NCBI RefSeq assembly: GCF_002208095.1
Contig: NZ_CP017990.1
Location: 2,914,001-2,978,000 of the forward strand
From: Enterobacter cloacae complex sp. ECNIH7
GTDB taxonomy: Bacteria; Pseudomonadota; Gammaproteobacteria; Enterobacterales; Enterobacteriaceae
Length of the DNA stretch: 64,000 bases
Reading direction: 5' to 3'
Made by a program: the position numbers and the translations under genes. This document shows, in pieces, positions 9,709-34,209 of the stretch. The notes below the pieces were generated by a model, which made no database searches, was not told the DNA's origin, and worked only from the letters and a program-made list of their open reading frames with translations. Each line of letters begins with the position of its first letter. Within the stretch, counting starts at the first letter, position 1.

Positions 9709-12173
9709 TCCCTTCCGCCACGTACCGCATCCAGTTTCGTAACGGCATGACCTTCGACCGCGCTGCGGCGCTGGTGCCTTACCTGAAAGATCTCGGCATC
9801 AGCCACCTCTACGCGTCGCCCGTGTTTACCGCCACCGCGGGTTCCACCCACGGCTATGACGTGACCAACCCGAATGAAATCGACCCGGCGATCGGCGGAC
9901 GAGACGGTTTCGACCGCATGGCCGCGGCGCTTAAGCAGGCCGGCATGGGGCTGATTCTGGATATTGTCCCGAACCATATGTCCACCTCGCTGGAAAACGC
10001 CTGGTGGCGGGACGTAATTGAATACGGCCAGCAGAGCCGCTATTTCCGCTATTTCGATATCGACCGGTCGCGACCGCTGACGCTGCCGTTTCTCGGCGAC
10101 ACCTTTGAGGCCGAGCTGGAGAAGGGGGCGATCGCCCTAAAACGTGACCCTGTCACGAACAAGGCCGCGCTGGTTTACTATGACGCCGAGTATCCGCTCA
10201 ACCCCGGCACGTACAGCGAGGAGAAAAGTATTGCTGAGCTACATGAAGCGCAAAGCTGGCGGCTGATGTCCTGGCGGGAAGCGCCGAAGCAGCTGTCGTG
10301 GCGGCGCTTCTTCGAGATCACCGGGCTGGTCGGCGTTCGGGTTGAAGATGACGCGGTATTCGACGATACGCACCGGCTGATCCTGGAGCTGGTTCACGCC
10401 GGCGTGGTGGACGGTCTGCGCATTGACCACGTCGACGGCCTGGCCGATCCGCTGGGCTATCTGCAGCGCCTGCGGCAGAAAACCGGGCCCGACTGCTATA
10501 TCACGGTTGAAAAAATTCTCGCGAAGGGAGAACAGCTCCCCGCCGACTGGCCGGTATCCGGCACCACCGGCTACGAGTTTATCGCCTCGCTGGCGGAAGT
10601 GCTGGTCGACGATGATAACCTGTCGCGCCTGGAGACCATCCACGACGAAACGCTGGGGATAACGGTCGATCGCCACGCGGAACTGCGCGATGCCAAGGGT
10701 CTGATGACCGATCGCAATTTTGAGGGTGAGTTCACCACGCTGCTTAACCTTGCTGACGATCTGGCCCGCCGCAATGAGGTTGCGCTGCCGCGCGAGGAGA
10801 TCCGCCACGCGCTGCGCGAGCTGCTTATCGCCTTTCCGGTCTACCGCACCTACGGCACCCGGGAGGGATTAACCCCGCCTGACGTGGTGCTGCTTAACCG
10901 CGTGGTCGCCAACGTGGAGACGTCTGAAGCGGCGCTGAGCCTGCTTGTGCGCATTCTTACCGGCGACCTGCCGGAAGATTGTCGCGAGTCCGCCGCGCTT
11001 TTCAGAACCCGCTTCCAGCAGCTTACCGGGCCGCTGATGGCGAAGTCCGTTGAAGATACGCTGTTCTTCCGCCACAACCTCGAGCTGGCGCTCAATGAAG
11101 TGGGCGCCGACCCGACGCCGCGCGCGTTTTCATTATCCCGCTTCCACCAGGAGATGCGCATTCGTCTGGCCCGACAGCCCGACGCGCTGCTGGGCACCTC
11201 CACGCACGATACCAAACGCGGAGAAGACGCCCGGGCGCGACTCTACACCCTGACGGAAGCGCCGGAACGCTGGGGTGAGAACCTGGCCCGCTGGCGACAG
11301 ATGAACCAGACCCAGGTACGTTTTCTCAATGACGGCACCGCGCCGAACGCCGCCGATACCTGGATGATCTATCAGGCGCTGGCGGGCGTCTGGCCCGCCA
11401 CGCTGTCTCCGGACGACGCTGAAGGGCTTGCATCACTGGAAGCGCGTTTTAACGGCTTCCTCGAGAAAGCGCTGCGCGAGGCAAAACAGCGCACCGACTG
11501 GATCGACAGCAACGAGAGCTATGAGAGCGTGGTGCTGAGCTACGCGCGGCACCTGCTTTCGCCGGACAACGCGCTGTTCCTGCAGGATTTTAGCGAGGCG
11601 ATGCAGCCCTTTATTCGGGCCGGGCTGATGAACAGCCTCAGCCAGACGGTGATCAAGCTAACGGCTCCCGGCGTGCCGGATATCTATCAGGGCAGCGAGG
11701 CGCTTAACTTTAGCCTCGTCGACCCGGATAACCGACGGGAGCCGGATTTCAACGCGCTGGTGCACAACCTCAGCGCGGCGGATGCCTCGGTGTTTGACAA
11801 CCCGGCCTGCTGGCGAGACGGGCGCGTTAAGCAGTTCGTTACCGCCACGCTGCTGCGGCTTCGACCACACTACGACGCGCTATTCCGCTACGGCGACTGG
11901 CTGCCGCTTAAGGTCTCCGGCGAGCGCGAGGAGAATCTGATTGTCTATGCGCGCGTTAAGGACGAGGAGGCGCTGATTGTCGCCGTGCCGCGTCTGGTTT
12001 TTGATGTCACCGATAACCATCAGCTGTGGGTCAATACCGCGGTAGCGATACCCGACGAACTGGTCGGGAAGCGCTATCGGGACCTGTTCAGCGGTGAAAG
12101 CCGCATTCTGCAAGAGACGCTGGATTTAACGTCAGAAAAGGGATGTGTACTGGTTCTGCTTACCTGCGAATAA
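9705..12173 (+). CDS. treY: Malto-oligosyltrehalose synthase
   Basis: TreY converts the reducing-end alpha-1,4 bond of a maltodextrin to alpha-1,1 (intramolecular transglucosylation). The 822-residue protein opens with SATYRIQFRNGMTFDRAAAL and has SPVFTATAGSTHGYDV, LILDIVPNHMS, LRIDHVDGLADP (nucleophile region) and YITVEKIL (acid Glu), all hallmarks of the GH13 TreY group, which is longer than ordinary amylases. The start overlaps the treZ stop by four bases. glgX follows 15 bases downstream. There is no sign of truncation. Confidence 0.95.
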   Translation: MIPSATYRIQFRNGMTFDRAAALVPYLKDLGISHLYASPVFTATAGSTHGYDVTNPNEIDPAIGGRDGFDRMAAALKQAGMGLILDIVPNHMSTSLENAWWRDVIEYGQQSRYFRYFDIDRSRPLTLPFLGDTFEAELEKGAIALKRDPVTNKAALVYYDAEYPLNPGTYSEEKSIAELHEAQSWRLMSWREAPKQLSWRRFFEITGLVGVRVEDDAVFDDTHRLILELVHAGVVDGLRIDHVDGLADPLGYLQRLRQKTGPDCYITVEKILAKGEQLPADWPVSGTTGYEFIASLAEVLVDDDNLSRLETIHDETLGITVDRHAELRDAKGLMTDRNFEGEFTTLLNLADDLARRNEVALPREEIRHALRELLIAFPVYRTYGTREGLTPPDVVLLNRVVANVETSEAALSLLVRILTGDLPEDCRESAALFRTRFQQLTGPLMAKSVEDTLFFRHNLELALNEVGADPTPRAFSLSRFHQEMRIRLARQPDALLGTSTHDTKRGEDARARLYTLTEAPERWGENLARWRQMNQTQVRFLNDGTAPNAADTWMIYQALAGVWPATLSPDDAEGLASLEARFNGFLEKALREAKQRTDWIDSNESYESVVLSYARHLLSPDNALFLQDFSEAMQPFIRAGLMNSLSQTVIKLTAPGVPDIYQGSEALNFSLVDPDNRREPDFNALVHNLSAADASVFDNPACWRDGRVKQFVTATLLRLRPHYDALFRYGDWLPLKVSGEREENLIVYARVKDEEALIVAVPRLVFDVTDNHQLWVNTAVAIPDELVGKRYRDLFSGESRILQETLDLTSEKGCVLVLLTCE

Positions 12174-20574: not shown

Positions 20575-21102
20575 ATGAAGGCAAAGAAAATCGCTCTCGC
20601 GATTGCGATGATAGCTGGTGCTATAATCGCAAATGCGAATGCAAAAGATCAGGGACATGGTACCGTTACGTTTACGGGTTCTATTATTGATGCGCCTTGC
20701 TCCATTACACCAGACAGTGCTGACCAAACCGTTGATTTGGGTCAGATCTCTAACCTGGCGCTGGAAGATGGCGGCACATCTATTCCACAGGTTTTCGCTA
20801 TCAAACTGCAACAGTGTGATACGACAACCAAAAAGACAGTGACCACCACGTTCTCTGGCACCGCATCTGCGGCTAACCCGGATCTGCTCGGTATTCAGGG
20901 CACCGCAAAAGGTGCTTCTGTTGCAATTACGACGGACACCGGTACTCCGATTAAACTGGGCCAGGCTTCTCCGGCGCAATCACTGCTGAATGGTGATAAC
21001 GACCTGACGTTTGCTGCTTTCCTTAAGGGTGATGGCGCGTCTGCGACAATCGTCCCGGGTAAATTCCAGGCTATTGCCAGCTTCGCACTGGATTACCCAT
21101 AA
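20575..21102 (+). CDS. Major fimbrial subunit, type 1-like pilin
   Basis: A 175-residue pilin: signal peptide MKAKKIALAIAMIAGAIIANANA, then a chaperone-usher pilin domain with the Cys pair (TGSIIDAPCSI and LQQCDTT), the typical GTVTFTG donor-strand region and a C-terminal beta-strand ending in FALDYP (penultimate aromatic motif recognised by the chaperone). The ATG at 20575 is chosen for the signal peptide; the frame is open 39 codons further up. It is followed by a strong terminator, consistent with the major subunit being made in excess. Small Ala/Ser/Pro patches (TASAANPD, GQASPAQS) are present. Confidence 0.9.
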   Translation: MKAKKIALAIAMIAGAIIANANAKDQGHGTVTFTGSIIDAPCSITPDSADQTVDLGQISNLALEDGGTSIPQVFAIKLQQCDTTTKKTVTTTFSGTASAANPDLLGIQGTAKGASVAITTDTGTPIKLGQASPAQSLLNGDNDLTFAAFLKGDGASATIVPGKFQAIASFALDYP

Positions 21103-21143
21103 TCCCGGCATGACTTATTACGCAAGTAATTAACCCTGTTATT

Positions 21144-21187
21144 GTGCCGGTGATTAGTTAATTGTCTTAATCACTGGCACTTTTTTT
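21144..21187 (+). terminator. Attenuating terminator after major pilin gene
   Basis: A 13-bp stem with one G-U pair (GTGCCGGTGATTA / TAATCACTGGCAC, 21144-21156 with 21168-21180) is followed by seven T. It lies between the major pilin and the rest of the operon, and would lower downstream expression relative to the major subunit. Confidence 0.85.
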
Positions 21188-21188
21188 C

Positions 21189-21760
21189 ATGAAACCAGAG
21201 TGTATTTTAATGATATTATTATCTGGACTTCGAGTGATTATATTTCCCTGTATATTGATACCGTGCGTGGCGGCGGCACATAACCCTCGCCATGCACAGG
21301 CCGATCAAGGCCACGGCATTGTCAATATGCAGGGAAGTATAATTGATACACCATGCGCTATCGCCACCGTCGATCGTGAGCAAAGCATTGAAATGATGAC
21401 CACGACCGTGGGTGAAATTATTCACAACGGTCGTGGAAATAAAAATCCCTTTTCGTTAACGCTGGTCAATTGCAATCTGCATATAATAAGGATGCGCAAA
21501 CCCTGTCATCCCATTTCCAGACGACGTTTGATGGTCCATCTTCAGATGGACTTTTTTCCGTTGACGGCGCATCAGGCGTAGGGCTTGAAATTACGGATGA
21601 CGCCGGAAATGTGGCGCAACCAGGGAAAGCGCTCCCTCCGGGTACATTGAGCAACGGTTCACAAATTCTTAAATACCAGTTGCGTCTTATGGGTAATCGC
21701 GACCGCCTGAAAGCGGGTGAGTATACGGCCACGATACGTTTCAAAGTTGATTACTTTTGA
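21189..21760 (+). pseudogene. Second pilin gene, broken by a frameshift
   Basis: The first frame (21189 onward) gives a hydrophobic leader, AAAHNPRHAQADQGHG and a pilin start (GSIIDTPCAIATVDRE) up to LTLVNCNL, then runs into non-pilin sequence. The frame two bases over, from about 21479, continues AYNKDAQTLSSHFQTTFDG, GVGLEITDDAGN and ends in TATIRFKVDYF, a normal pilin C-terminus. One missing base near 21476-21480 explains this. Joined, the gene would encode about 190 residues, paralogous to the gene before it (shared ADQGHG and GSIID). No base run is present at the break. The start may be ATG 21210, with AGAG upstream, rather than 21189. Its stop overlaps the usher start region. Confidence 0.8.
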
Positions 21761-21762
21761 AA

Positions 21763-24267
21763 ATGAAAAAAGTCAATAAAACCATCTTTCTGGGCAAGTT
21801 ACACCCTGTAGCGGTTGGTGTAATTCTTGCGTTTCTGGCAGTAAAAGGCGTTCACGCTGAAGGTAATGTCGAATTTAATACTGATGTACTCGACATTAAA
21901 GAGCGGAATAATGTTGATTTAAGCCAGTTTTCCCGGGCGGGTTATTTAATGCCCGGCAAGTATCAGCTTACGCTAAAGGTCAATAAAACCGACATACCGG
22001 ATCAGACGGTAGAGTATTTCCCGCCTGAAGATGATCCGAAAGGGAGCGAAGTTTGCCTCACAGCCGAGCATGTCTTACAAATTGGCCTGAAAGAGTCCAT
22101 CGTTAAAGGTGTTTCATGGTGGCATAACGGACAGTGTCTGAATCTTCATTCTCTGGAAGGAATGGTAGCCAGAGCCGATCTGGGGACAAGTACACTCTAT
22201 CTCAGCATTCCTCAGGCATACCTGGAGTATACGGCCGAAAACTGGGATCCGCCTTCTCGCTGGGATGAGGGAATTCCGGGCGTACTGTTTGATTACACCG
22301 TCAATGCAACGTCGTCGAAACAACAGGAACAACGTTCCAATTCCGTCACGGGTAACGGCACGACTGGCGCGAATCTGGGTGCCTGGCGCCTTCGGGGTGA
22401 CTGGCAAGCGCAATACATACGCAACACAGGAAATGAGAGTCAAAAACAGCAAAGCTGGGACTGGAGCCGGGTTTATACCTATCGGGCCATCACCGCACTG
22501 CGGGCAAAATTGGTGCTGGGAGAAGACTATTTAAATTCCTCACTGTTTGACAGTTTCCGTTTTACCGGCGCCAGCCTGTCTACTGACGATAACCAGCTGC
22601 CGCCCAATCTTCGCGGATATGCACCGGAAGTGGTAGGTGTCGCGAAGACGAACGCCAAAGTGACTATCAGCCAGCAGGGCCGCGTAATTTATGAAACCAC
22701 TGTCGCGCCAGGTCCGTTTCGTATTCAGGATCTCAACTCGGCCGTATCCGGAAAACTGGATGTCAAAGTGGAAGAGCAGGATGGCGCAACCCAAACCTTT
22801 CAGGTCGATACCGCCTCCATTCCTTATCTGACGCGGCCAGGCCTGGTACGTTACCGGGTCGCTATGGGGAAACCCTCTGATTATGACCACCATTCTCAGG
22901 GGCCAAATTTTGCCACTGGCGAAGCATCATGGGGCGTGAATAGCGGCTGGTCATTATATGGCGGAACGCTACTCGCAGGGGACTATAACGCGCTCTCCCT
23001 GGGGGTCGGGCGCGATCTGTTGATGTTTGGGGCAATTTCCTTTGACGTCACTCAGTCCCGGGCCGCGATTCCGAATCAGGACACATTAAGCGGTAAATCA
23101 TTTCGCGTCAGCTATTCGAAACGCTTTGATGAGTTTGATAGTCAGGTGACCTTTGCGGGTTACCGTTTCTCAGAACGTGACTTTATGAGCATGTCTCAGT
23201 ATCTGGACCGCCGCTATCACAACGGCGATAACGGTGGGCGCGACAAAGAACTGTACACCATCACCATGAATAAACAGTTCCGCGAACAGAACATGAGCGC
23301 GTTTCTGAACTATAGCCACCAGACATACTGGGACAGGGAAGCGACGAACACCTGGAACGTTTCGCTATCGAACTTTTTTGACGTCAGTCGGTTTAAGAAC
23401 ATTAGCCTGACACTGTCTGCCTACAGAACAGAATATGACGACTCTAAAGATGATGGCGTCTATCTGAGCTTGTCTGTGCCGTGGTCCAACGGCGCAACAG
23501 TGAGCTACAACGGCCAGTACAGCGGAGACAGCAGTAGCAATACGGTGGGTTATTACCAGCGCATTGACGCCAACAATTATTACCAGGTTAATGCCGGCAG
23601 CACGACTGACGGCCGAGGTACCGGGAGCGGGTACTTTACTCATGATGGCGATAGCGCAAGTGTGACCGCCAATGCCAGCTATACCGGCAGCAAAACCAGC
23701 GCCGCAAGTCTGTCGCTACAAGGAGGCGTTACCGCTACCGCCAGGGGGGCGGCGCTACACAGAACCAATGCAACGGGAGGAACCCGAATGCTCGTCGATA
23801 CGGCAGGAGTGGAAGGCGTTCCCGTGCAGGGCATGGCGGGGATCGTTCGTACCAATGCCTTCGGTAAGGCGGTCGTTGCGGATGTTAGCAGCTACTACCG
23901 GAGCAGCGTGAGCATTGATCTGGACAGCCTGCCGGAAAACGTCGATGCCACACGTTCAGTTGTGCAGGACACGTTAACGGAAGGCGCGATTGGCTACCGT
24001 GCCTTTGGCATTCTCGCCGGGCAGAAGGGCATGGCGGTGATCAAACTGGCTGACGGCAGCGAACCGCCGTTTGGCGCAGAAGTACGCAATGGAGACAACA
24101 TGACAACAGGGATTGTCGCCGAAAACGGCAGCGTCTGGCTTTCAGGTATACGTCCTGGAGAGCGCATGGACGTGTACTGGGGCAACGACGTGCAATGTTA
24201 CATCGAGTTGCCGCCATCGCTGCCGGAAACAATCAAAAATCTGTTGTTGCCTTGCCTCTCACGCTGA
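21763..24267 (+). CDS. Fimbrial outer membrane usher (FimD-like)
   Basis: An 834-residue usher that would thread pilin subunits through the outer membrane. After a signal peptide (to VKGVHA) come an N-terminal chaperone-binding domain (VEFNTDVLDIKERNNVDLSQFSR-like), the 24-strand barrel with the plug, FYYRSS/SYYRSSVSIDLDSLPENVD-type late motif, and a C-terminal domain with a Cys pair. Length is standard for the family. The ATG at 21763 is preferred over the in-frame TTG two codons before. It follows the broken pilin gene by two bases. The chaperone gene follows, the reverse of the chaperone-usher order of the fim operon. Confidence 0.93.
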   Translation: MKKVNKTIFLGKLHPVAVGVILAFLAVKGVHAEGNVEFNTDVLDIKERNNVDLSQFSRAGYLMPGKYQLTLKVNKTDIPDQTVEYFPPEDDPKGSEVCLTAEHVLQIGLKESIVKGVSWWHNGQCLNLHSLEGMVARADLGTSTLYLSIPQAYLEYTAENWDPPSRWDEGIPGVLFDYTVNATSSKQQEQRSNSVTGNGTTGANLGAWRLRGDWQAQYIRNTGNESQKQQSWDWSRVYTYRAITALRAKLVLGEDYLNSSLFDSFRFTGASLSTDDNQLPPNLRGYAPEVVGVAKTNAKVTISQQGRVIYETTVAPGPFRIQDLNSAVSGKLDVKVEEQDGATQTFQVDTASIPYLTRPGLVRYRVAMGKPSDYDHHSQGPNFATGEASWGVNSGWSLYGGTLLAGDYNALSLGVGRDLLMFGAISFDVTQSRAAIPNQDTLSGKSFRVSYSKRFDEFDSQVTFAGYRFSERDFMSMSQYLDRRYHNGDNGGRDKELYTITMNKQFREQNMSAFLNYSHQTYWDREATNTWNVSLSNFFDVSRFKNISLTLSAYRTEYDDSKDDGVYLSLSVPWSNGATVSYNGQYSGDSSSNTVGYYQRIDANNYYQVNAGSTTDGRGTGSGYFTHDGDSASVTANASYTGSKTSAASLSLQGGVTATARGAALHRTNATGGTRMLVDTAGVEGVPVQGMAGIVRTNAFGKAVVADVSSYYRSSVSIDLDSLPENVDATRSVVQDTLTEGAIGYRAFGILAGQKGMAVIKLADGSEPPFGAEVRNGDNMTTGIVAENGSVWLSGIRPGERMDVYWGNDVQCYIELPPSLPETIKNLLLPCLSR

Positions 24268-24326
24268 TCGTGGTGATGGGATCAGGCAAAACCGTCATTA
24301 TCATTTTGTAATAAAGAGAGTGAGTT

Positions 24327-25076
24327 ATGTGTTTTGTGCAGAAAAAGATCGGTCTAACGCTGGGTGTACTCGCACTGGCATTGGTCGCGCAGCAGGTAAA
24401 TGCAGCCATTGCGCTGGATCGCACCCGGGTGATTTATAGCGGCAATCAGAAATCAATGAGTGTGACCGTAACGAATCAAAATAAATCCTTGCCTTATCTG
24501 GCCCAGTCCTGGATTGAGGACAGTAACGGCAATAAAACCGAGACGCCGTTTATGGCATTACCGCCGGTGCAACGCGTTGAGCCAGGCGCTAAAGGTCAGG
24601 TGAAAATTCAGGGTAATAACGCTCAGGCGTTGCCGCAGGACAGAGAATCGTTGTTTTATTTTAACGTACGCGAAATTCCACCGAAGAGTTCTAAACCCAA
24701 TACGCTTCAGCTTGCGCTGCAAACCCGCGTCAAACTCTTTTACCGCCCGGAAGCGTTGCAGTTACAAAACGGGATGGAGAACGAGGCCGCGAAAAAACTC
24801 ACCTTAACTCGTCAGGGTGAAGGATTCCGGTTAAGCAATCCCACGCCTTACTACCTGACGATTGTCGCGGCAGCGACGTCAGAGAAGGGCGGTGATATCG
24901 AGAGTTTTAAACCTGTAATGGTCGCGCCTAAAGAAAGCATTGCGCTGGGCGCAACCGCGGCTTCACTGGGCGCACACCCGGTACTGACTTCCGTAAATGA
25001 TTACGGTGGCCGGCCGAAACTTGTTTTTAACTGTGCGGGGAATACCTGTGCAGTGGACCATGTTAACGCGGGTTAA
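24327..25076 (+). CDS. Periplasmic fimbrial chaperone (FimC/PapD-like)
   Basis: A 249-residue chaperone with signal peptide (cut after QQVNA) and two Ig-like domains. Diagnostic parts are AIALDRTRVIYSGNQKSMSV (subunit-capping strand with the conserved Arg), YLAQSWIED, FYFNVREIPPKS and VKLFYRPEAL with the conserved Lys. It holds pilin subunits in the periplasm and delivers them to the usher. It lies between the usher and the minor pilins; the first minor pilin begins 12 bases later. Confidence 0.93.
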   Translation: MCFVQKKIGLTLGVLALALVAQQVNAAIALDRTRVIYSGNQKSMSVTVTNQNKSLPYLAQSWIEDSNGNKTETPFMALPPVQRVEPGAKGQVKIQGNNAQALPQDRESLFYFNVREIPPKSSKPNTLQLALQTRVKLFYRPEALQLQNGMENEAAKKLTLTRQGEGFRLSNPTPYYLTIVAAATSEKGGDIESFKPVMVAPKESIALGATAASLGAHPVLTSVNDYGGRPKLVFNCAGNTCAVDHVNAG

Positions 25077-25088
25077 GGAGAGCAACCT

Positions 25089-25691
25089 GTGAACGGAAAA
25101 GCAATTTACCGTTACTCGCGCACGTGTGCGTTGAGTCTGCTTCTGAGCGGCAGCTTGGCGAATAATGCTCTGGCTGTCGATGACTGGAATGTCCAGGGTG
25201 AGAATGGTCAATTGCACGTTCATGGCGTTCTGCGTAACGGAAGTTGCCTGATCAGCATGCGTTCAAAGCTGCAGGATGTGGTAATGGATAACTCGGCGCT
25301 GGGGGCGATGAAACGTCCGGGCGATACCGGCAATCCGACACAAATCGTTTTTCGTCTTCTGGGTTGCGAAAGCACCGGTGGCCTGCAACGTCGCGGTCGA
25401 ATAGGGCCATCGACATGGGATGAAACCCAACCGGTGGTCACCGTAAGCTTCATGGGCGCGACGGATCCTGACGATCCCACGTTATTACTGATCGCCGGAA
25501 TGTCTGGCGTCGGCCTTCGCATTCTGGATAACAACGGCAGAATCGTTATTCCCGGGATGCGGGGCAAGCCGCAGTTTGTGACGACGGGCAGTGATGAGCT
25601 GACCTATACCGTTATCCCTGTTCGTACCATCGCCCCGCTGATTGCGGGAGAATTTCGCGCCTCAGTTGATTTCGGAATCAGTTATGACTAG
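25089..25691 (+). CDS. Minor fimbrial subunit
   Basis: A 200-residue pilin-domain protein with signal peptide (cut near NNALAVDD), the Cys pair (LRNGSCLI and LLGCEST) and the C-terminal FRASVDFGISYD strand. GTG start with GGAGAG eight bases upstream. A longer central loop (RGRIGPSTWDETQP) sets it apart from the major pilin. It is probably an adaptor or tip-fibrillum subunit. Its end overlaps the next start by eight bases. Confidence 0.85.
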   Translation: MNGKAIYRYSRTCALSLLLSGSLANNALAVDDWNVQGENGQLHVHGVLRNGSCLISMRSKLQDVVMDNSALGAMKRPGDTGNPTQIVFRLLGCESTGGLQRRGRIGPSTWDETQPVVTVSFMGATDPDDPTLLLIAGMSGVGLRILDNNGRIVIPGMRGKPQFVTTGSDELTYTVIPVRTIAPLIAGEFRASVDFGISYD

Positions 25692-26247
25692 TTCACGCGT
25701 GATGTCGTTTATTCGCCTTGCCCGTACACCGCTCCTCGCACTGGTGCTGCTGGTCCCGACGGTAAGCCAGGCAAATAAAGGCGACACCTACTCATTAAAC
25801 ATCAATATCGATGGCACTCTGGTGGCAAACGGTTCTTGTCAGTTTAATCAGGGCGACAGCCTGACGGTCGACTTTGGTGATGTGAAATTGCTCCCGCAGG
25901 GGACGGACACCATGACGCTGGATGGGAATTACCGTAAATCGATTACCAGCGATTTTACCTGTACCGGTGATACCGCGGGGCTTCTTCAAATGCAATTGGC
26001 CAGTCTATCGGGCAGCTATAAAGCTTACAACGGAACCGACGTGATTGAGATAGACAAAGGGATGCTTGGCGTCGAACTGTTAGTCAATGGCGCCCCGCAA
26101 GCTTCCGGGAAGTGGTTCACCATCGACCAAAGCAAGCCACCCACGCTTGAGGCGCAGCTGGTGCAAGTCAGCACCACAAACAGTAAACAGGTGACAAATG
26201 GCGATACGTTCACGGCTTCTGCCACATTGCAACTTTCGTTTAATTGA
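25684..26247 (+). CDS. Minor fimbrial subunit
   Basis: A 187-residue pilin-domain protein. The ATG at 25684 gives a credible signal peptide (SFIRLARTPLLALVLLVPTVSQA); the frame is open for 14 more codons, but that stretch overlaps the previous pilin. Cys residues lie in VANGSCQFNQ and SDFTCTGD, and the C-terminal strand is TASATLQLSFN. It is translationally coupled to the gene before and ends ten bases before the next. Confidence 0.84.
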   Translation: MTSSRVMSFIRLARTPLLALVLLVPTVSQANKGDTYSLNINIDGTLVANGSCQFNQGDSLTVDFGDVKLLPQGTDTMTLDGNYRKSITSDFTCTGDTAGLLQMQLASLSGSYKAYNGTDVIEIDKGMLGVELLVNGAPQASGKWFTIDQSKPPTLEAQLVQVSTTNSKQVTNGDTFTASATLQLSFN

Positions 26248-26257
26248 ACAGACGGTT

Positions 26258-26758
26258 ATGAAGAGAATACTCCACATTGTCACCTTATCTGGTTTGCTGC
26301 TGACCGGGACGCCGCATGCCGCGCAGGTTGGCGATCAGATGTCTGTCAATTTTAAAGGCACATTTATCATTACCACGCCCTGTACCGTTTCAGGCGATGA
26401 GGTGATCGATGTGTCGTTTGGCAGCATCAGCGTGGGTAAAGTGAACGGCATCGACAATAAACAGGACATCCCCTATACCGTTGACTGCCACGGCGCGCCG
26501 GATGATTCCGCACTCAATATTCAGGTGAGCGGGGTGGCCGAAATTTTCGATGACGCCGCCGTTACGACATCTGCTGACGGGCTGGGTATCCAGATTCAGG
26601 CTAACGGCGTGCCGATGAAGCTCAACCAGCCGCTGAAAACAACGCTTGGCGGCCTGCAATCCCTGGTGCTGAGCGCTGTACCGGTTAAAGATCCGAATAA
26701 AGTGCTGAGCGAACAGACGTTTACGGCCGTTGCGACATTAACCGCGGATTATTTCTGA
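26258..26758 (+). CDS. Minor fimbrial subunit
   Basis: A 166-residue pilin-domain protein: signal peptide KRILHIVTLSGLLLTGTPHA, a Cys pair (ITTPCTVSG and TVDCHGAP) and a C-terminal strand VATLTADYF. The ATG at 26258 is fixed by the signal peptide. It is a short, typical adaptor-sized subunit within a tightly packed run of four minor pilins. Confidence 0.85.
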   Translation: MKRILHIVTLSGLLLTGTPHAAQVGDQMSVNFKGTFIITTPCTVSGDEVIDVSFGSISVGKVNGIDNKQDIPYTVDCHGAPDDSALNIQVSGVAEIFDDAAVTTSADGLGIQIQANGVPMKLNQPLKTTLGGLQSLVLSAVPVKDPNKVLSEQTFTAVATLTADYF

Positions 26759-26767
26759 GGCACAACC

Positions 26768-27313
26768 ATGAACATACGACTCGTGAAGGCGACAAGCCGG
26801 GGAATAGCGGCATTACTTGTCGCATCCGGCCTGACCATCACGCCCGCTCTGGCGATTGAGGATAACCTGCACTTTAGCGGGACATTGACCAGCGCGCCCT
26901 GCGGGCTGGACCCACTGACCACCGATCTGAGCGTCGATTTTGACATGATCATGGAACCGGATTTGTATGCCTATGCCCGTACCAAAGGCGTACCGTTCAC
27001 CATTACCCTGACGGACTGTGATTTATCGATAGCCAGTAAAGCCTCGATCACATTTAAAGGCACAGAGAGCACTGAACTGCCCGGGCTGTTAGCGGTGACA
27101 GGGGAAGCGGCGGGGATCGCAATTGGTGTGGAGACCGAAGACGGCATCGCGGTACCGTTTAATAAACCGACACCGGAACATGTACTGAACAGCGGTGACA
27201 ATACCTTTACCCTCATGGCCTATATTCAGGGGGAACCGACCCATCTGCGGCAGGAAACCATTACACCGGGGAATTTTACCGCGGTGTCTACCTTTATGCT
27301 GGCCTATCCTTAA
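26768..27313 (+). CDS. Minor fimbrial subunit
   Basis: A 181-residue pilin-domain protein: signal peptide ending near TITPALA, LHFSGTLTSAPCGLDP and TLTDCDLS for the Cys pair, and the terminal strand STFMLAYP. Residues around EVLNSG/EHVLNSGDNTFTLMAY resemble the major pilin more than the other minor ones do. The adhesin gene starts 15 bases later. Confidence 0.85.
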   Translation: MNIRLVKATSRGIAALLVASGLTITPALAIEDNLHFSGTLTSAPCGLDPLTTDLSVDFDMIMEPDLYAYARTKGVPFTITLTDCDLSIASKASITFKGTESTELPGLLAVTGEAAGIAIGVETEDGIAVPFNKPTPEHVLNSGDNTFTLMAYIQGEPTHLRQETITPGNFTAVSTFMLAYP

Positions 27314-27328
27314 TTAAGAGATAATAGA

Positions 27329-28234
27329 GTGAATATATATAAACAATTTCATCATTCTATTACGGTGATAATTAATGTTTTTGCTTCTATCATCGTGATG
27401 TTAATGTGTCAGGGTAGTGCGACAGCGACAGTCATGGGGTATTCCGTTGATAACGCCTGCGGATTGCCACGCCATGTTGCATCAAGAGGCAGTATGACCA
27501 ACTATCATACTTATCAACAAGGAAGATGTAGTGTTAGTCTACAGGGTACCTATTACGTCCCGGTTTCTGGATATTACACCGTTGGTGTAAGAGGCGTTAC
27601 CAGTGATGGCAAAACACTTGTAGGTTATGCGTCACAAGCTCGATATATTGACGCCTCTAAACCGTTAAATAATCAGGATGTAAATCCCGGAACATCAGGT
27701 AGTTGGCAATCTGAGGGTACTACCTCTTTTGATGCCTGCGATACCTTAAAAGGCCCGGATGGACAAATCTACTTTCTGAATACTTACGGAAAATGTACCG
27801 GTCAAAAACTCCCGCCAACGCCCGTAGTAAATACCTCCTGTACCATTAACAGCGGTAACGCCTTAAGTGTCTCGTTGGGTTCACTGGATCGCTCCACGCT
27901 ACCAACAATACCCAGTTCCAGCACCGCCAAACATATTAATATCCCGGTGAGTTGCACAGGTGGCGACGTCACCGTCTCAATGAATATCACCTATACGGCG
28001 ATTACCATTGGCAGCACGCAGGCAGTAAAAACCTCAGCAAATGGGGTAGGCACGGCGATTATTTATAACAACGCCGCCGTTTCCCCAACCAGCAAAGCCA
28101 CAATTAACCTGAAAAGCGGATCGAATACGGTCGACCTCGGTTTTCAGGCTATTCGTGATTCAGCGGTGGCGGTGAAAGATATTCCCACCGGCGCGTTCAC
28201 CGCCAGCGCGGTCATGGTCATGACCCAACAGTAA
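27329..28234 (+). CDS. Two-domain fimbrial tip adhesin candidate
   Basis: A 301-residue protein with a signal peptide (cut after CQGSATA). Residues of about 35-165 form a domain unlike the pilins, with Cys in DNACGLPRH, GRCSVSL, DACDTL and GKCTGQ and many aromatic/Gly residues. A Pro-rich linker (KLPPTPVVNT) then leads to a C-terminal pilin domain (CTINSGNALSVSLGSLD to TASAVMVMT). The layout matches MrpH-like tip adhesins: an N-terminal receptor-binding domain on a pilin anchor. The ligand cannot be predicted. GTG start. It is the last gene before a perfect terminator. Confidence 0.82.
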   Translation: MNIYKQFHHSITVIINVFASIIVMLMCQGSATATVMGYSVDNACGLPRHVASRGSMTNYHTYQQGRCSVSLQGTYYVPVSGYYTVGVRGVTSDGKTLVGYASQARYIDASKPLNNQDVNPGTSGSWQSEGTTSFDACDTLKGPDGQIYFLNTYGKCTGQKLPPTPVVNTSCTINSGNALSVSLGSLDRSTLPTIPSSSTAKHINIPVSCTGGDVTVSMNITYTAITIGSTQAVKTSANGVGTAIIYNNAAVSPTSKATINLKSGSNTVDLGFQAIRDSAVAVKDIPTGAFTASAVMVMTQQ

Positions 28235-28262
28235 TGCCCAAATAATCCTGCTTTCCTTTTAC

Positions 28263-28291
28263 GGGGCGGAAATATTTCCGCCCCGATTTTT
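28263..28291 (+). terminator. Rho-independent terminator at end of fimbrial genes
   Basis: A perfect 22-base palindrome, GGGGCGGAAA-TA-TTTCCGCCCC (28263-28284), is followed by GATTTTT. It ends the fimbrial operon immediately before the next start codon. Confidence 0.88.
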
Positions 28292-29971
28292 ATGAAAATA
28301 GTCATGTTAAATATAAACTGTAATTATCATTCACCGCGCCGCGGTCTACTTTTTATCGCTGGCGTCTGGTTATGCGGTGGTCTGCTCTGGCTATTACCGA
28401 ATCAGGGGGGCTCCGGACTGGCGTTACCCCAAAATCTACTGGCCTGGTGCGCGATGGCGCTCATGGTGCTGTGGGGTTCACTCACCGAACGAAGGGTGAA
28501 ATTTATTTATCCTGCTGGCACCCAACTGATTATAACGGGAGCCATTCTCTGGTCACTGCCGCTGCTATGGTCGCCGTCTTCCGCCTGGCAGTGGAACGCC
28601 GCGACGAAAGTGATGGCGCTGTGGGGGCTGCTCATCGTCTGGCTGGAACTGCTTAAAAGCCCCATAACGCCCATTATCAGACGTCACTGGCTGCTGATTA
28701 TGGTGATATCGGCCTTTTTACAGACCATTTTCTGTCTGTATCAATTGACTGATATGGCGACACTGCCCGGCGGACGCCCGTACGGCATCTTCCAGCAGGT
28801 AAACGTTCTGGCTTCTTTTTTAGCCACCGGCACGGTTTGTGCCCTTTGGCTTAATACAACGGCGCGCCAGAAGTGGGTAACGCGTTTCTGTTCCCTGTCA
28901 CTGGTTATGCTACCGGCCATGCTGGTGTTGTTGCAAAGCCGGGCAGGTTATCTTGGCGCTATCCTGGGCTGCCTGCTCGTGCTGGTAGCAGCAAACAAAA
29001 AGCGCCGTCGCCACGGTTATGTTTCTCTGTTGCTGATGTTAGCGGGTATCGTTCTGGGTCTTGTCGCGCTTCACGTTGGTCCACGGTTATTTCCTGGTTT
29101 TGCGCCTGGCGTGGTTGATAAAGGTGATTCCGATAGTCAACGCTGGTATATATTGCAATTGACCTGGCAGCTAATCCAGAACCATCCTGTCATCGGCAAT
29201 GGCTACGGCAGTTTTGAAGCATTACTCGCCCAATTGGCGCAACAGGCGACTCGAGGACTGGAAAGCAAGACGATTCTCTATCCACACAATGAATTTTTCT
29301 ATACATGGATGGAAGGGGGGCTCGTTGCCGTCGCGGGTGTGATTCTGATGATCGGCGGCATGCTGAAAAGGCTGTGGAGTCGGGGAGGGCGTCGATGGAT
29401 TGGTCTGGCGATGTTATTACCCATTGCGCTACACATGAATCTGGAGTATCCGCTCTATCAATCAGTGACGCATGGTCTGGCTCTTGTCATCCTGCTGGGA
29501 ATTAACGGCCCAACAGCGATGCCGGTTAAAAATGTCGGCCAGGGCAACATGATGAGGGCCAACAGAATATTACGCGTTTTGGCCGCGAGTGCCGTTTTGA
29601 TATTTATGGCAACCGGTGTCGTAACCGAAGTGCAAATGACCACTATTGAGCAACATGGGCTTGCACCGCTGGCCAGGGATGAAAGCATGGCTGTTGGAAC
29701 ATTACTCAATCCCTGGAGTCAACATGACAGGCTGGATTTTGACCGCCACGTAGCTCTGCTGCTGCGGTTCAATTTGACCAGAGATCCTGATTTATTAACT
29801 CGCTTCCAGTCCTGGGCCGAGCATTATAGGAAGGTTCACAATAGCCCTGATGTCAACTTCAGCCTGATGATGATCTACAGGGCGCAGAACAGCGAAAACG
29901 CTAAAGAGATATGTATGCAAAGCAACGCACTGTGGCCAGAGGATATCCGCTTTACGTGCGTGAAGTTATAG
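28292..29971 (+). CDS. PglL-like O-oligosaccharyltransferase / Wzy-C family membrane protein
   Basis: A 559-residue protein with about 12 hydrophobic helices. Residues 160-176 (GGRPYGIFQQVNVLASF) match the PglL_A signature, and YPHNEFFYTWMEGG at 330-343 (His332) matches the Wzy_C/O-antigen-ligase loop. The last 130 residues form a soluble region as in PglL-type enzymes. Such enzymes transfer lipid-linked glycans to Ser/Thr of periplasmic proteins, often pilins; Wzy polymerases and WaaL ligases share part of the fold, so ligase class is inferred. The ATG comes straight after the terminator U-run with no ribosome site; ATG 28304 is an alternative, equally weak. No glycan synthesis genes are adjacent. 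Confidence 0.8.
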   Translation: MKIVMLNINCNYHSPRRGLLFIAGVWLCGGLLWLLPNQGGSGLALPQNLLAWCAMALMVLWGSLTERRVKFIYPAGTQLIITGAILWSLPLLWSPSSAWQWNAATKVMALWGLLIVWLELLKSPITPIIRRHWLLIMVISAFLQTIFCLYQLTDMATLPGGRPYGIFQQVNVLASFLATGTVCALWLNTTARQKWVTRFCSLSLVMLPAMLVLLQSRAGYLGAILGCLLVLVAANKKRRRHGYVSLLLMLAGIVLGLVALHVGPRLFPGFAPGVVDKGDSDSQRWYILQLTWQLIQNHPVIGNGYGSFEALLAQLAQQATRGLESKTILYPHNEFFYTWMEGGLVAVAGVILMIGGMLKRLWSRGGRRWIGLAMLLPIALHMNLEYPLYQSVTHGLALVILLGINGPTAMPVKNVGQGNMMRANRILRVLAASAVLIFMATGVVTEVQMTTIEQHGLAPLARDESMAVGTLLNPWSQHDRLDFDRHVALLLRFNLTRDPDLLTRFQSWAEHYRKVHNSPDVNFSLMMIYRAQNSENAKEICMQSNALWPEDIRFTCVKL

Positions 29972-30142: not shown

Positions 30143-31618
30143 TCAGTGTTGGGGATCCTGAATTATTTTCTCCAGTCTGGGTAGGGATAAAATAAATCGC
30201 GTCGAGCGTACATCCGATTCCACATGCACTCTTCCGTGATGTGCTTCCACGATTGACTTCACAATGGCAAGACCGATGCCGCTGCCTTCTCCTTTTCGTT
30301 GTCTGGACGGATCCACCCGATAAAAACGGTCAAACAACTTTGATAAATGATCTTCAGGGATTGGTTTCCCCGGATTTTCAATCACAAGGTCAAAAAAGCT
30401 TCCCTGATTTCTTATTGAAACGGTGATTGCCTGTCCCTCAGGGGTATAACGCAGGGCGTTGGATAAAAGATTATTGATCGCTCTTCTGAACATTTGCGGA
30501 TCTCCTTCAACCAGACAGGGCATTCCGTTAAATTTGAGCGCAATATTGCGTTCTTCGGCCCAGGCTTCGAAAAACTCGAAAACTTTTATGACTTCCGCTC
30601 TGAGGTCAAACATGACCCTGTCAGGTATCAGCTGATTATTATCAGCCTGTGCCAGGAACAACATATCGCTGACCATTTTGGTCATCCGGTTATACTCTTC
30701 AAGACTGGAATAGAGGACATCCTCAAGTTCCTTTTGTGTTCGATCCTGACTCAGTGCGATTTCAGTCTGCGTCACCAGATTGGTGATAGGCGTTCTGATC
30801 TCGTGCGCGATATCGGCAGAGAAATTGGCCTGGCGGGTAAAGACATCTTCAATCTTTTCGATCATATGGTTGAAGGAGATGACCAGCTGTTCCAGCTCAA
30901 TCGGAACGCGTGTCGGCTCCAGTCGTGCATCCAGATTTTCGGAGGTGATGTTTTTAATGGCGTTGCTGACGTTACGCAGGGGCAAATGTCCCTGGCGCAC
31001 CGCGATGCGGATAACAAGAATAATCAGCAGGCTGATAACGGCGGCAATCGCCAGAAGGTTTTTTTTCAGCGCCTCAAGGTAGTGGAGATGAAAATTAATG
31101 GAGAGCCCGATCAGCATAACGTAGTTCTGGGGTTTACCCTGAAGCGTCGCCGTGCCTGAGGAGGCGATAATCCGGTACGTTTCCATTTTGATGTTGGACC
31201 CGGCGTGCATGTTTTCGACAGGGTCTTCAACCGTCCAGAGAAACACATCCTGCGCGCGGCGGTGTTCGCTAAAATCCGCCGTGTTCATCGCAGGGCGCAG
31301 TGTCGCCCCTTGCGCCGAGCTGAACAGGGTATTTCCCTGCGGATCCAGGAGCAGGACGGCCACGTTGCGGTAGCTGGCCATCGACTCTTTGATTTTACTG
31401 ATTTTCTTTTGGTCAGGATCGCCCGGAGACTGCAGGATGCGGTGCATCGCGGTGCTGATTTGCTGCAGATCGCTGACATCCTGCTCGGCGAAATGCTTTT
31501 CAACGGAATGCAGCATAAACCAGGTAAAGGCGAAAAAGGCCAGTATCGTGGAGAGGCTGATGAAGAAGGTCAGCCGCAGGGCAAGTGAGAAAGGGCGCCT
31601 GGCAAGCTTAACGCGCAT
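30143..31618 (-). CDS. cusS: Copper/silver sensor histidine kinase (CusS/SilS-like)
   Basis: A 491-residue membrane kinase. One N-terminal helix (about 15-38), a periplasmic sensor domain (about 39-190), a second helix ([20 protein letters not shown]), HAMP, the H-box [16 protein letters not shown], and the ATP-binding N box ([18 protein letters not shown]), plus [18 protein letters not shown]. The domain set matches CusS/SilS, which sense periplasmic Cu(I)/Ag(I) and phosphorylate CusR/SilR. Its start overlaps the regulator gene by 11 bases, so the two are co-transcribed. Confidence 0.92.
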
Positions 31619-32291
31619 CCGGTACCTCCAGCATATAGCCCACGCCGCGCACCGTCTGGATCAGCTTCGGTTCAAAATCGTTATCGATTTTCGCGCGCAG
31701 CCGCTTTACCGCCACATCAATCGCGTTAGTGTCGCTGTCAAAATTCATGTCCCACACCTGGGAGGCAATCAGGGAGCGGGGAAGCACCTCACCCTGATGA
31801 CGCATGAAAAACTCCAGCAGGCTGAACTCTTTGCTGGTTAACAGGATGCGGCTCCCGGCCCGGCTGACTTTTCTCGACACGAGGTCAACCGTCAGGTCAG
31901 CCACCTGAAGCTGGCTTTCCGCAATAACCGTATTTCCGCGCCTCAACAGCGTCCTTACCCGGGCAAGCAGCTCCGCAAAGGCGAAAGGCTTAATCAGATA
32001 ATCATCCGCGCCCAGCTCAAGTCCTTTAACCCGGTGTTCAATCGTCCCGAGGGCCGTGAGTAACAGGATGGGCATCCCTTTACCGGCCGAGCGGAGCATG
32101 CGGACAATATCCCAGCCGTTCACATCGGGCAGCATGATATCCAGAATCAGCAGATCGTATTCCGCGGTCATAGCGAGATGGTAGCCGTTCAGGCCGTTAT
32201 CCGCGTGGTCTACAACAAACCCCGCTTCCGTCAGCCCCTTACTCAGGTACTCACCGGTTTTCATTTCGTCTTCGACGATCAGTATTTTCAT
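31608..32291 (-). CDS. cusR: Copper/silver response regulator (CusR/SilR-like)
   Basis: A 227-residue OmpR-type regulator: receiver domain starting MKILIVEDE, phosphorylation site in [15 protein letters not shown], and a C-terminal winged helix ending [21 protein letters not shown] and [13 protein letters not shown]. It is intermediate between CusR and SilR by eye. The ATG at 32291 has GGGGAGCACG upstream; ten extra in-frame residues further up are not family-like. It is divergent from cusC, with a CusR box in the gap. Confidence 0.93.
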
Positions 32292-32361
32292 CGTGCTCCC
32301 CTGACTGGCTGCTGATGACATTCTAGTGAGCGTACCGCCGTTAACAATGACTTACGTTAAA

Positions 32362-32379
32362 AATGACAACATTGTCATT
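32362..32379. promoter_or_regulatory. CusR box, cusR-cusC intergenic region
   Basis: AATGACAA-CA-TTGTCATT is a perfect 8-bp inverted repeat with a two-base centre, matching the known CusR operator. It sits between the divergent cusRS and cusCFBA units and would activate both under copper or silver. Confidence 0.88.
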
Positions 32380-32453
32380 ATCCTGTCACCCGTCAAACAG
32401 GATGCGTTCCGTAGAGTAGCCCTAAAACTACTCTGGACTTTATTTGAACCGTT

Positions 32454-33839
32454 ATGTTCCTGTTAAAACGACTAAGCATCAGTACGGTATTTATTCTGGC
32501 AGGCTGCGTCTCGCTGGCCCCGGAGTACCAGCGGCCGGAAGCACCTGTCCCCCGGCAGTTTTCGCTCTCCCGTAACGGCCTGACGCCCGCGGCGGCTGGG
32601 TATCAGGACACCGGCTGGCGCAACTTTTTCGTCGATCCTCAGGTTGCGGGGCTGATTACGGAGGCCCTGAAGAACAATCGCGATCTGAAAATGGCCGTCC
32701 TGAAGGTCGAAGAGGCCCGGGCGCAGTTCAACGTGACGGATGCGGATCGCTACCCTCAGCTGAATGCCTCCTCGGGCATCACGTACAGCGGCGGGCTGAA
32801 AAGTGACAAACCCACCGCGCAGCAGTACGACGCGGGCCTCGCGCTTAGCTATGAACTCGATTTCTTCGGCAAGCTGAAGAACATGAGCGATGCCGACCGA
32901 CAAAACTTTTTCGCCAGCGAAGAGGCCCGTCGCGCGGTGCATATCCTGCTCGTCTCTAACGTGTCGCAGAGCTATTTTAACCAGCAGCTGGCGTATAAAC
33001 AGCTGCGCATCGCGCAGGATACGCTGACAAATTACCAGCAGTCTTATGCTTTCGTTGAGCAGCAGCTGGTGACGGGCAGTACGAACGTCCTGGCGCTGGA
33101 ACAGGCCCGGGGACAGATCGAAAGCACGCAGGCAGAGATTGCCAAAAGAGAGGGGGAGCTGGCGCAGGCCAATAATGCCCTGCAGCTGATCCTCGGCACG
33201 TATCGCGCGCTCCCGGGCGACGGCGGCATGAACGCCAGCGATGTCGCCCCGGTAAAACTGCCTCCTCATCTTTCCTCCGCGATACTGCTGCAGCGCCCGG
33301 ATATTATGGAGGCGGAGTATCAGCTTAAAGCGGCCGATGCGAATATCGGCGCGGCGCGCGCCGCCTTTTTCCCGTCCATATCTCTCACCAGCGGGCTATC
33401 AACCGGAAGCACGGAGTTGTCCAGCCTGTTCACGTCAGGGAGCGGGATGTGGAATTTTATTCCTAAAATCGAAATTCCCATTTTTAATGCGGGCAGAAAT
33501 AAGGCCAACCTGAAGCTGGCCGAAATTCGCCAGCAGCAGTCGGTGGTTAATTACGAACAAAAAATTCAGTCCGCCTTCAAACAGGTTGCCGACGCGCTCG
33601 CGCTGCGGGACAGCATTAACCAGCAGCTTGCTGCACAACAGCGGTATCTGGATTCGCTCCGCATCACGCTTCAACGTGCCAGAGGGCTATATTCCAGCGG
33701 CGCGGTCAGCTATATCGAAGTGCTTGACGCGGAGCGTTCTCTTTTCTCTACCCAGCAAAATATTCTCGACCTTATTTATGCCCGGCAGGTTAATGAAATT
33801 AATCTCTTCACCGCGCTCGGCGGCGGTTGGGTCGAATAA
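32454..33839 (+). CDS. cusC: Outer membrane channel of Cu(I)/Ag(I) efflux
   Basis: A 461-residue TolC-family lipoprotein. The lipobox ILAGC gives a lipidated Cys around residue 18, followed by [13 protein letters not shown], typical of RND outer membrane factors. Two repeats of long coiled helices follow ([48 protein letters not shown]-like). It forms the outer membrane duct for CusBA. It is the first gene of cusCFBA, downstream of the CusR box. Confidence 0.93.
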   Translation: [461 protein letters not shown]

Positions 33840-33867
33840 CCTTATTTAATTAAACAGGAAAATAACC

Positions 33868-34209
33868 ATGCGCAATTCACTTAAGGCCGTTGTATTTGGT
33901 GCGATCTCCATTGTGTTTTCTGCCAGCCTCCAGGCTGAGGTTCATCAGCACGAGATGATGAGTGCTGCCAGCGAAGGGACCTCAGAGCAGGTCATCACGG
34001 GAACCGGCATCGTGAAGGACATTGATCTCACGAATAAAAAAGTCACGATTTCCCATGAAGCGATCCCGGAAATTGGCTGGCCCGCGATGACCATGCGTTT
34101 TACCTTTATTCAGGCTGACGAGAGTATCAATGCCTTAAAAGTCGGCAGTCACGTGAATTTCTCGTTTGTTCAGCAGGGCAATCTCTCTTTACTCAAGAGC
34201 ATTAAATAG
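33868..34209 (+). CDS. cusF: Periplasmic Cu(I)/Ag(I) chaperone
   Basis: A 113-residue secreted protein: signal peptide to SLQAE, then a His/Met-rich lead (HQHEMM) and an OB-fold domain. The metal site ISHEAIPEIGWPAMTMRF supplies the His, the capping Trp and two Met ligands known from E. coli CusF. It ferries metal to CusB. It sits between cusC and cusB, as in E. coli. Confidence 0.93.
   Translation: MRNSLKAVVFGAISIVFSASLQAEVHQHEMMSAASEGTSEQVITGTGIVKDIDLTNKKVTISHEAIPEIGWPAMTMRFTFIQADESINALKVGSHVNFSFVQQGNLSLLKSIK

Follow-up and report, generated by a model that had tools for sequence, protein, structure and literature searches.

Chaperone-usher (CU) pili are the main adhesive fibres of enteric bacteria, and PglL-class enzymes are known to O-glycosylate type IV pilins as well as other proteins of the envelope. 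We analyzed a 64,000 nucleotide stretch of Enterobacter cloacae complex sp. ECNIH7 (assembly GCF_002208095.1, contig NZ_CP017990.1, positions 2,914,001 to 2,978,000 of the forward strand; hereafter the window, from a host genome of 5.39 Mb in four contigs) in which a CU pilus operon is followed on the same strand by a gene for a PglL-class O-oligosaccharyltransferase (the ligase). Judged from the genes and their relatives, this operon very probably builds a CU pilus whose major subunit is O-glycosylated by its PglL-class enzyme, and the new element is a candidate acceptor, the loop serine Ser156 of the major pilin. With somewhat less confidence, it is also probable that the Enterobacterales carry a widespread class of CU pili whose rods are coated by a dedicated PglL at an outward-facing loop serine of the major subunit, with matched ligase-pilin pairs (up to four per genome) and with some operons carrying their own glycan-synthesis and ATP-binding cassette (ABC) export genes as a self-contained factory. 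The enzyme class, the conserved linkage and the co-occurrence of the serine loop with the ligase were computed here. A sequence-only reading of the window had proposed that a CU pilin or adhesin receives, while in the periplasm, a lipid-linked glycan made elsewhere, and for the pilin this general idea is the best reading.

The enzyme class was assessed by domains, residues and fold. The ligase matched the Pfam families PglL_A (PF15864; 32.8 bits against a cut-off of 25, residues 163-187), Wzy_C (PF04932; 74.4 bits, cut-off 31.7) and Wzy_C_2 (49.8 bits, cut-off 28.5), bearing out the first two signatures that had been noticed by eye, and the Wzy_C His332 motif was confirmed with H332 invariant in 48 aligned sequences. 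Schulz 2013 (PMC3643930) lists eleven residues of NmPglL, seven of which (Q178, N180, G316, G318, H400, E404 and P406 in NmPglL numbering) are PglL-specific and not in WaaL. All eleven, including the seven, were found in the window ligase when matched by order and spacing rather than by aligning NmPglL itself. Ten of them (Q169, N171, R284, P299, G302, G304, H332, H381, E385 and P387) are invariant in the 48 aligned ligase homologues and the eleventh, R217, is kept in at least 90% of the sequences; Q169, N171, G302, G304, H381, E385 and P387 are the window equivalents of the PglL-specific residues. A profile search of the PDB led to 7tpg, giving the ligase the WaaL fold, to which it adds a C-terminal helical domain (about residues 440-559) with weak TPR-like matches; the profile was needed, as a single-sequence PDB search gave no match. 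TfpO, TfpM and PglS were absent from the structure matches, an absence that excludes nothing. The ligase is therefore assigned by domains and residues to the PglL-class O-oligosaccharyltransferases, with that activity predicted. The question raised by the sequence-only reading, protein O-oligosaccharyltransferase or O-antigen ligase, is answered in favor of the former at the level of residues, by the PglL-specific ones; the ligase tree took in homologues only.

A second Wzy_C protein, of the WaaL type, is encoded elsewhere in the genome (C1:152531, 58.5 bits), presumably in the core lipopolysaccharide (LPS) cluster by the look of its neighbors, and the window ligase is located in the CU operon, not in an LPS locus. 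The WaaL fold and Wzy_C domain would also suit an auxiliary ligase that places O-antigen or another glycan on the lipid A core and lies beside pilus genes by chance, and one relative, WaaL-XS of Yersinia, is reported to have been able to complement E. coli lacking waaL (PMC3643930). That alternative is very improbable given the PglL-specific residues, the presence of the other Wzy_C protein, the frequent CU linkage described below and the statement in the same source that WaaL-XS plays no part in making LPS in its own host. No type IV pilin neighbors the ligase in the window, the neighbors being CU genes, and no type IV prepilin leader turned up when nine loci of the first set and the 80 named loci were scanned with a crude regular expression.

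Linkage of the ligase and CU genes was followed across genomes. Ligase homologues were found in 8 of 40 genomes of a genus sample and 39 of 295 genomes of a family sample, the window's own genome being counted in both. Fifty of 51 distinct homologue places were taken (one fragment was dropped), mostly with about 9 kb on each side and some clipped at contig ends. An usher was present in 44 of these 50 neighborhoods, own included, demonstrating conserved linkage, and L068, with an usher 10.4 kb from the ligase in the overlapping locus L182, would be the 45th. The nearest CU gene was within 150 bases of the ligase on the same strand in 26 of the 50, and only 5 bases away in one group. The arrangements differ, with the ligase standing at the end, divergently oriented to the major pilin, or set between the chaperone and the pilins, suggesting selection on proximity rather than a single frozen operon. 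Named loci were the best 80 of 350, several of them from genomes already in the genus or family samples; these relatives came from an alignment scan, an earlier single-sequence scan having found none. CU genes lay beside the ligase in 39 of 44 named Enterobacterales loci (36 with an usher, 3 with other CU genes); L196, L208 and L233 lacked them near contig ends, and L214 and L258 lacked them away from contig ends. The same neighborhood occurred in the single Pseudomonas fontis locus and in none of 35 named loci from Vibrionaceae (31), Psychromonas (3) and Aeromonas (1). The ligase tree had 113 rows; over 111 of them the label for CU genes or none changed 7 times, as compared to about 34 in shuffles. 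In the reverse direction, 34 of 136 ushers of this clade had a ligase within 10 kb, suggesting that the ligase is a pilus accessory and not a fixed part; the usher and ligase counts are lower bounds, few candidates per genome having been scored in the family searches. The coupling had been called unusual, and it instead recurs across the Enterobacterales.

One genome, G208, holds four ligases (L061, L062, L063 and L064) with CU genes next to each. No near match to the whole operon was found on plasmids, and a tblastn search with the ligase returned 13 plasmid records, every one below 60% identity. A related ligase named Escherichia coli (P0058) is 42% identical.

The ligase could instead be a general O-oligosaccharyltransferase like Vibrio cholerae PglL, acting on many periplasmic targets and simply carried along with fimbrial operons. 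PglLs of this general kind are known (PMC12645811), the 31 Vibrionaceae homologues all stand away from CU genes, and five Enterobacterales homologues (L057, L060, L070, L084 and L085) have no usher in the stretch. We consider this unlikely, as the CU linkage survives very deep ligase divergence in several arrangements, each of the four G208 ligases has its own CU genes alongside, and a loop serine of the major pilin follows the linked ligase, being missing from most unlinked major pilins of ligase-bearing genomes.

This serine was identified by comparing the pilins of ligase-linked operons to pilins from 53 operons that belong to the same usher clade but have no linked ligase, in five subunit classes and 899 columns. 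A single column, in a loop of the major pilin, was the sole far outlier. It held 35 Ser, 1 Thr and 3 gaps in 39 linked operons as compared to 10 Ser and 6 Thr in the 53 unlinked operons (p = 8.2e-10). The context is a small residue, Ser, and a small or short residue, which in the window is GDGASATIVPG with Ser156. Expressed as a rule, [AST]S[AGSDEN] in the major-pilin loop, the motif was present in 36 of 39 linked operons, the exceptions being L080 and two operons, L045 and L086, from which a truncated pilin, or one that is probably not the major subunit, had been taken. In further named loci that did not duplicate the first set, 24 of 24 complete major pilins carried it, a confirmation rather than a blind test. 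With the strict motif, 60 of 61 linked operons were positive versus 8 of all 53 unlinked operons (Fisher 2.9e-22). Among genomes without a ligase match the motif was found in 2 of 37 operons (5 of 37 with a lenient rule), and among unlinked operons of genomes with a ligase elsewhere it was found in 6 of 16, five of these six being in genomes with an orphan ligase (G291, G117 and G158). We read the motif-free unlinked operons of ligase-bearing genomes as a sign of pairwise specificity.

Whole genomes were also scanned with a back-translated LQG[DE]GA(S)A pattern that additionally admitted Thr and a few other codons. Thirteen of 295 genomes matched, at 17 sites, and in one of them (G209) the codon was Thr. 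The 12 Ser-coding genomes all have a ligase (p = 5.4e-12), and their 16 sites are all beside CU genes. Most of the pilins recovered were already in the motif-defining set, so what the scan adds is the absence of the pattern elsewhere.

The serine signal was confined to the major pilin. At the equivalent place of the other subunits in linked operons the motif was seen in 1 of 33 second pilins, 2 of 25 P3, 0 of 21 last P5 and 0 of 40 P6 pilins, counts that leave out 36 sequences (both groups) without a recognized loop. The combined Ser and Thr fraction was higher in linked second pilins (0.135 vs 0.119, p = 0.0019), with no single column passing, and in the last P5-type pilin (0.155 vs 0.139, p = 0.048), with two weak columns. 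Columns in the opposite direction were seen once in P6 (p = 9.3e-5) and once in the major pilin (p = 2.4e-4). The sequence-only reading had pointed to small Ala/Ser/Pro patches of the major pilin and to the Pro/Thr linker of the adhesin as possible acceptors. Patches rich in A, S, T, P or G were rejected as an acceptor signal, the mean best window being 12.0 of 20 residues in 294 linked proteins and 12.1 in 379 unlinked proteins, and nothing found singled out the adhesin linker; the pointer thus shifts to the one loop serine of the major pilin. If the glycan went to a minor pilin or the tip adhesin in place of the major pilin, this would agree with the finding that one of these is often the CU gene nearest the ligase, and the two last-P5 columns pass the within-class Bonferroni limit. 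In the column test, which covered the five pilin classes, those columns fail the correction over all classes and hold Ser or Thr in no more than 27-33% of linked operons; low-complexity patches were not enriched, and such a target is improbable.

Whether the serine loop and the ligase co-occur merely by shared descent in one operon lineage was assessed on a pilin tree built without the loop, which was weakly resolved. The best tree gave 19 contrasts, of which at least 13 (mean 15.7) were in the expected direction and 0 against. The three ties in one of the pairings were operons in genomes with a ligase elsewhere. Within one near-identical sister pair, linked L217 has GDGASAA and L176, which is unlinked with ligases elsewhere in its genome, has GDGTKDA. 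Divergent linked pilins (Pseudomonas L194, Pantoea L228) retain the motif, and the five motif-bearing unlinked operons of orphan-ligase genomes also argue against descent as the sole cause. Labels cluster on the pilin tree as well as on the ligase tree, and well-supported independent contrasts are few, which is what shared descent would produce. Taken together, we think it an unlikely explanation, marginally more so than that of a general enzyme.

Several observations weigh against glycosylation of the major pilin at this loop. The well-supported branches of the pilin tree give 4 independent pairs, of which a mean of 2.9 agree and almost none oppose (median p = 0.25), and the p of 3e-5 for the 19 contrasts relies on unsupported branches. 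The wording of the motif was fixed after inspection of the second set. Linked operon L080, of another usher class, is without the motif. L046, with nothing but Thr at the column, was counted by the rule via a TSD string; its usher also scored low (307 bits), placing it in another usher class. L152 and L160 carry the motif in genomes without a ligase match, and it is missing from 10 of the 16 unlinked operons whose genomes have a ligase. In ECNIH7 the second pilin gene is split between two frames, which might signal a damaged pilus. In L040, whose ligase is 87% identical, this pilin is a single 190-aa frame; we take it to occupy the place of the FimI-type rod terminators of type 1 operons. The split could affect the pilus in this strain, or it may alternatively be a sequencing error. 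Lastly, a terminator-like hairpin precedes the ligase, so plain co-transcription of adhesin and ligase is not assured and ligase expression may be limited. Counterparts with altered stem letters occur in L040, L041 and L047, and a weaker one in L059, and the hairpin could perhaps attenuate ligase expression to keep the ligase scarce relative to pilin.

An AlphaFold2 model of the major pilin (predicted local distance difference test score 87.6) places Ser156 in a well-predicted stretch, in the loop that joins strand 140-152 to the final strand, 168-173, with residues 153-159 outside strands. By profile alignment to solved pilins the loop aligns with ATGA---ATPG of FimA, residues 139-146 of the 159-residue mature chain as counted from the C-terminus. 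According to Hospenthal et al. 2017 (PMC5719983), the loops of the type 1 rod that face outward include FimA residues 140-143. By homology the Ser156 loop would therefore also face outward, and a glycan on it would project from the rod.

We infer the reaction and its glycan donor, as well as the sequence of events and any function. Pilin exported by Sec would meet its chaperone, and an undecaprenyl-PP-linked glycan, an enterobacterial common antigen or O-antigen unit, would be made elsewhere in the genome. On the periplasmic side the inner-membrane ligase would take this glycan and transfer it to the major pilin at Ser156, either ahead of storage on the chaperone or in the course of it. The usher would then assemble the rod with one glycan per subunit on its outer face. 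Possible roles include shielding from phage or antibody, surface charge and adhesion.

Donor prerequisites are present in the window genome as two Glycos_transf_4 genes, one of them beside a Wzz gene. In five CU loci (L045, L066, L213, L239 and L240) a common sugar and ABC-export set directly follows the ligase (L239:11656-18876). It encodes a cupin-like protein, a nucleotidyl transferase, a 569-aa protein, a WavE-type protein, an ABC-2 permease, an ABC ATPase, a GDPD-like protein and an HAD phosphatase, named by Pfam on L239 and by homologues in the other loci, the cupin and GDPD by reading without a Pfam match. The set was absent from the 57 loci taken as unlinked, and part of it is found in L085, which has a shortened ligase and no usher in the stretch. 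For the L239 cluster (Citrobacter MGH106) no E. coli record covered 80%, and the best 8 of 5376 matched only yejM and a tRNA. Homologues of several set genes occur without an ABC transporter or ligase at L300:4622-11372 and L301:7606-14348, adjoining what we take to be a 672-aa GDSL-autotransporter-like gene and acyltransferase-like genes. The sugar set is thus not exclusive to pili, which weakens it as proof of a dedicated pathway. No such cluster lies next to the ligase in the window and a search of the host genome did not find the signature 569-aa protein, so the glycan donor must come from elsewhere.

All parts that had been named in the operon were recovered on the + strand between 20575 and 29971 by open reading frames (ORFs) and Pfam, and are listed in the table. 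The usher also passes the NCBIfam subfamily model NF011812 (1097 bits, cut-off 972). The StfA and StfD equivalog cut-offs were missed (91 vs 267 and 278 vs 447 bits), suggesting that the operon is kin of Stf and not Stf itself. The real start of minor pilin 2 is probably later than the TTG at 25642.

Table. Features of the CU operon and ligase in the window.
Feature	Position	Strand	Details
Major pilin, Stf/LpfA/PapA-like	20575..21102	+	175 aa; Pfam Fimbrial 70.1 bits; ATG at 20575
Ser156 codon TCT, candidate O-glycosylation site	21040..21042	+	loop GDGASATIVPG
Second pilin, first piece (frame-split gene)	21189..21581	+	ORF; intact frame in L040
Second pilin, second piece (different overlapping frame)	21470..21760	+	ORF
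Outer-membrane usher, StfC-like	21757..24267	+	Pfam Usher 576, PapC_N 136.8, PapC_C 49.6 bits
Periplasmic pilus chaperone	24327..25076	+	PapD_N 140.6, PapD_C 55.8 bits
Minor pilin 1	25089..25691	+	Fimbrial 43.4 bits
Minor pilin 2, StfF/SteE-like	25642..26247	+	Fimbrial 30.6 bits
Minor pilin 3, StfF-like	26198..26758	+	Fimbrial 49.8 bits; NF011815 89 bits, under cut-off 253
Minor pilin 4, StfG-like	26768..27313	+	Fimbrial 54.8 bits; NF011816 84 bits, under cut-off 253
Tip adhesin	27329..28234	+	C-terminal pilin domain at residues 166-299; Fimbrial 34.1 bits
Terminator/attenuator-like hairpin between adhesin and ligase	28262..28285	+	10 pairs, then T-run
PglL-class O-oligosaccharyltransferase, membrane protein	28292..29971	+	559 aa; Pfam PglL_A, Wzy_C, Wzy_C_2

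On the 3' side of the ligase (window 30143-34209) a sensor kinase and response regulator on the - strand are followed by an outer-membrane factor and a small periplasmic protein on the + strand, presumably a locus resembling copper/silver efflux. In other genomes, LuxR- or EAL-like regulator genes, named by eye, lie 3' of the ligase in L048, L049, L053, L054 and L086. Lelliottia sp. V86_10 (L213) has two different PglL-class ligases in tandem (8207-9838 and 9947-11680) after one CU operon. A reverse-transcriptase gene is inserted in two CU loci between the last pilin and the adhesin-like gene or genes (L061:13535-14509 and L068:16685-17752, both - strand). The L061 protein matched RVT_1 with 64 bits and its L068 counterpart is similar by eye; two adhesin-like genes follow in tandem in L061, and the arrangement possibly serves adhesin diversification. 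Distant ligase homologues at L087:7705-8940 and L088:7905-8945, both on the - strand, adjoin an FKBP_N+FKBP_C isomerase with a long Ala/Ser/Pro/Thr-rich stretch like a classical O-glycosylation acceptor, and substrate switching is possible there.

Among the papers listed in searches of the open-access literature we found no report of a PglL-modified CU pilus, which does not prove priority, the nearest being a proteomic report of glycan on the fimbrial subunit CfaB (PMC5000012). A 2025 review of bacterial O-glycosylation (PMC12645811) contains no occurrence of fimbria or usher. Together these data suggest a widespread and apparently undescribed kind of sugar-coated CU pilus. If this is true, the identity of the attached glycan would be a further source of variation, on which the antigenicity, phage sensitivity and adhesion of such pili depend. 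With one residue and one gene pair now named, the idea becomes testable on a single protein, and ligases with a short natural acceptor loop may serve glycoconjugate making.

Among known systems, the general PglL O-oligosaccharyltransferases of Neisseria, Vibrio, Burkholderia and Acinetobacter are of the same class as the window ligase by Pfam domains and the Schulz 2013 residues. Unlike these, the window gene sits with a CU operon and its candidate substrate is a CU major pilin at a defined loop serine. In the Schulz 2013 survey (PMC3643930), 21 of 31 ligases were beside type IV pilin homologues and its table held no CU operon. The dedicated single-pilin ligases are likewise devoted to one pilin substrate, but act on type IV pilins or the pilin-like ComP, whereas the window ligase has PglL motifs and CU neighbors. 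Relatives of the window ligase at 33-36% identity (P0103 and P0110) correspond to Yersinia WaaL-XS. In Y. enterocolitica, Y. intermedia and Y. bercovieri its listed neighbor is a type IV pilin homologue (PMC3643930), while in seven loci of other Yersinia species (L197-L202 and L204, Y. enterocolitica not among them) the homologue is divergent from a CU operon. The O-antigen ligase WaaL (7tpg) has its fold in common with the window ligase, but the PglL-specific residues and C-terminal helical domain belong to the latter. The usher, chaperone and subunits of the window resemble StfC, StfD, StfF and StfG of the Salmonella Stf/Ste fimbriae, at scores below the equivalog cut-offs. CFA/I of enterotoxigenic E. 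coli is a chaperone-usher-type fimbria. Its major subunit CfaB was reported, by one proteomic method, to carry O-glycan sites, and the text of that report does not mention PglL and places the sites at the subunit interface, in contrast to the loop described here, which is predicted to face outward (PMC5000012).

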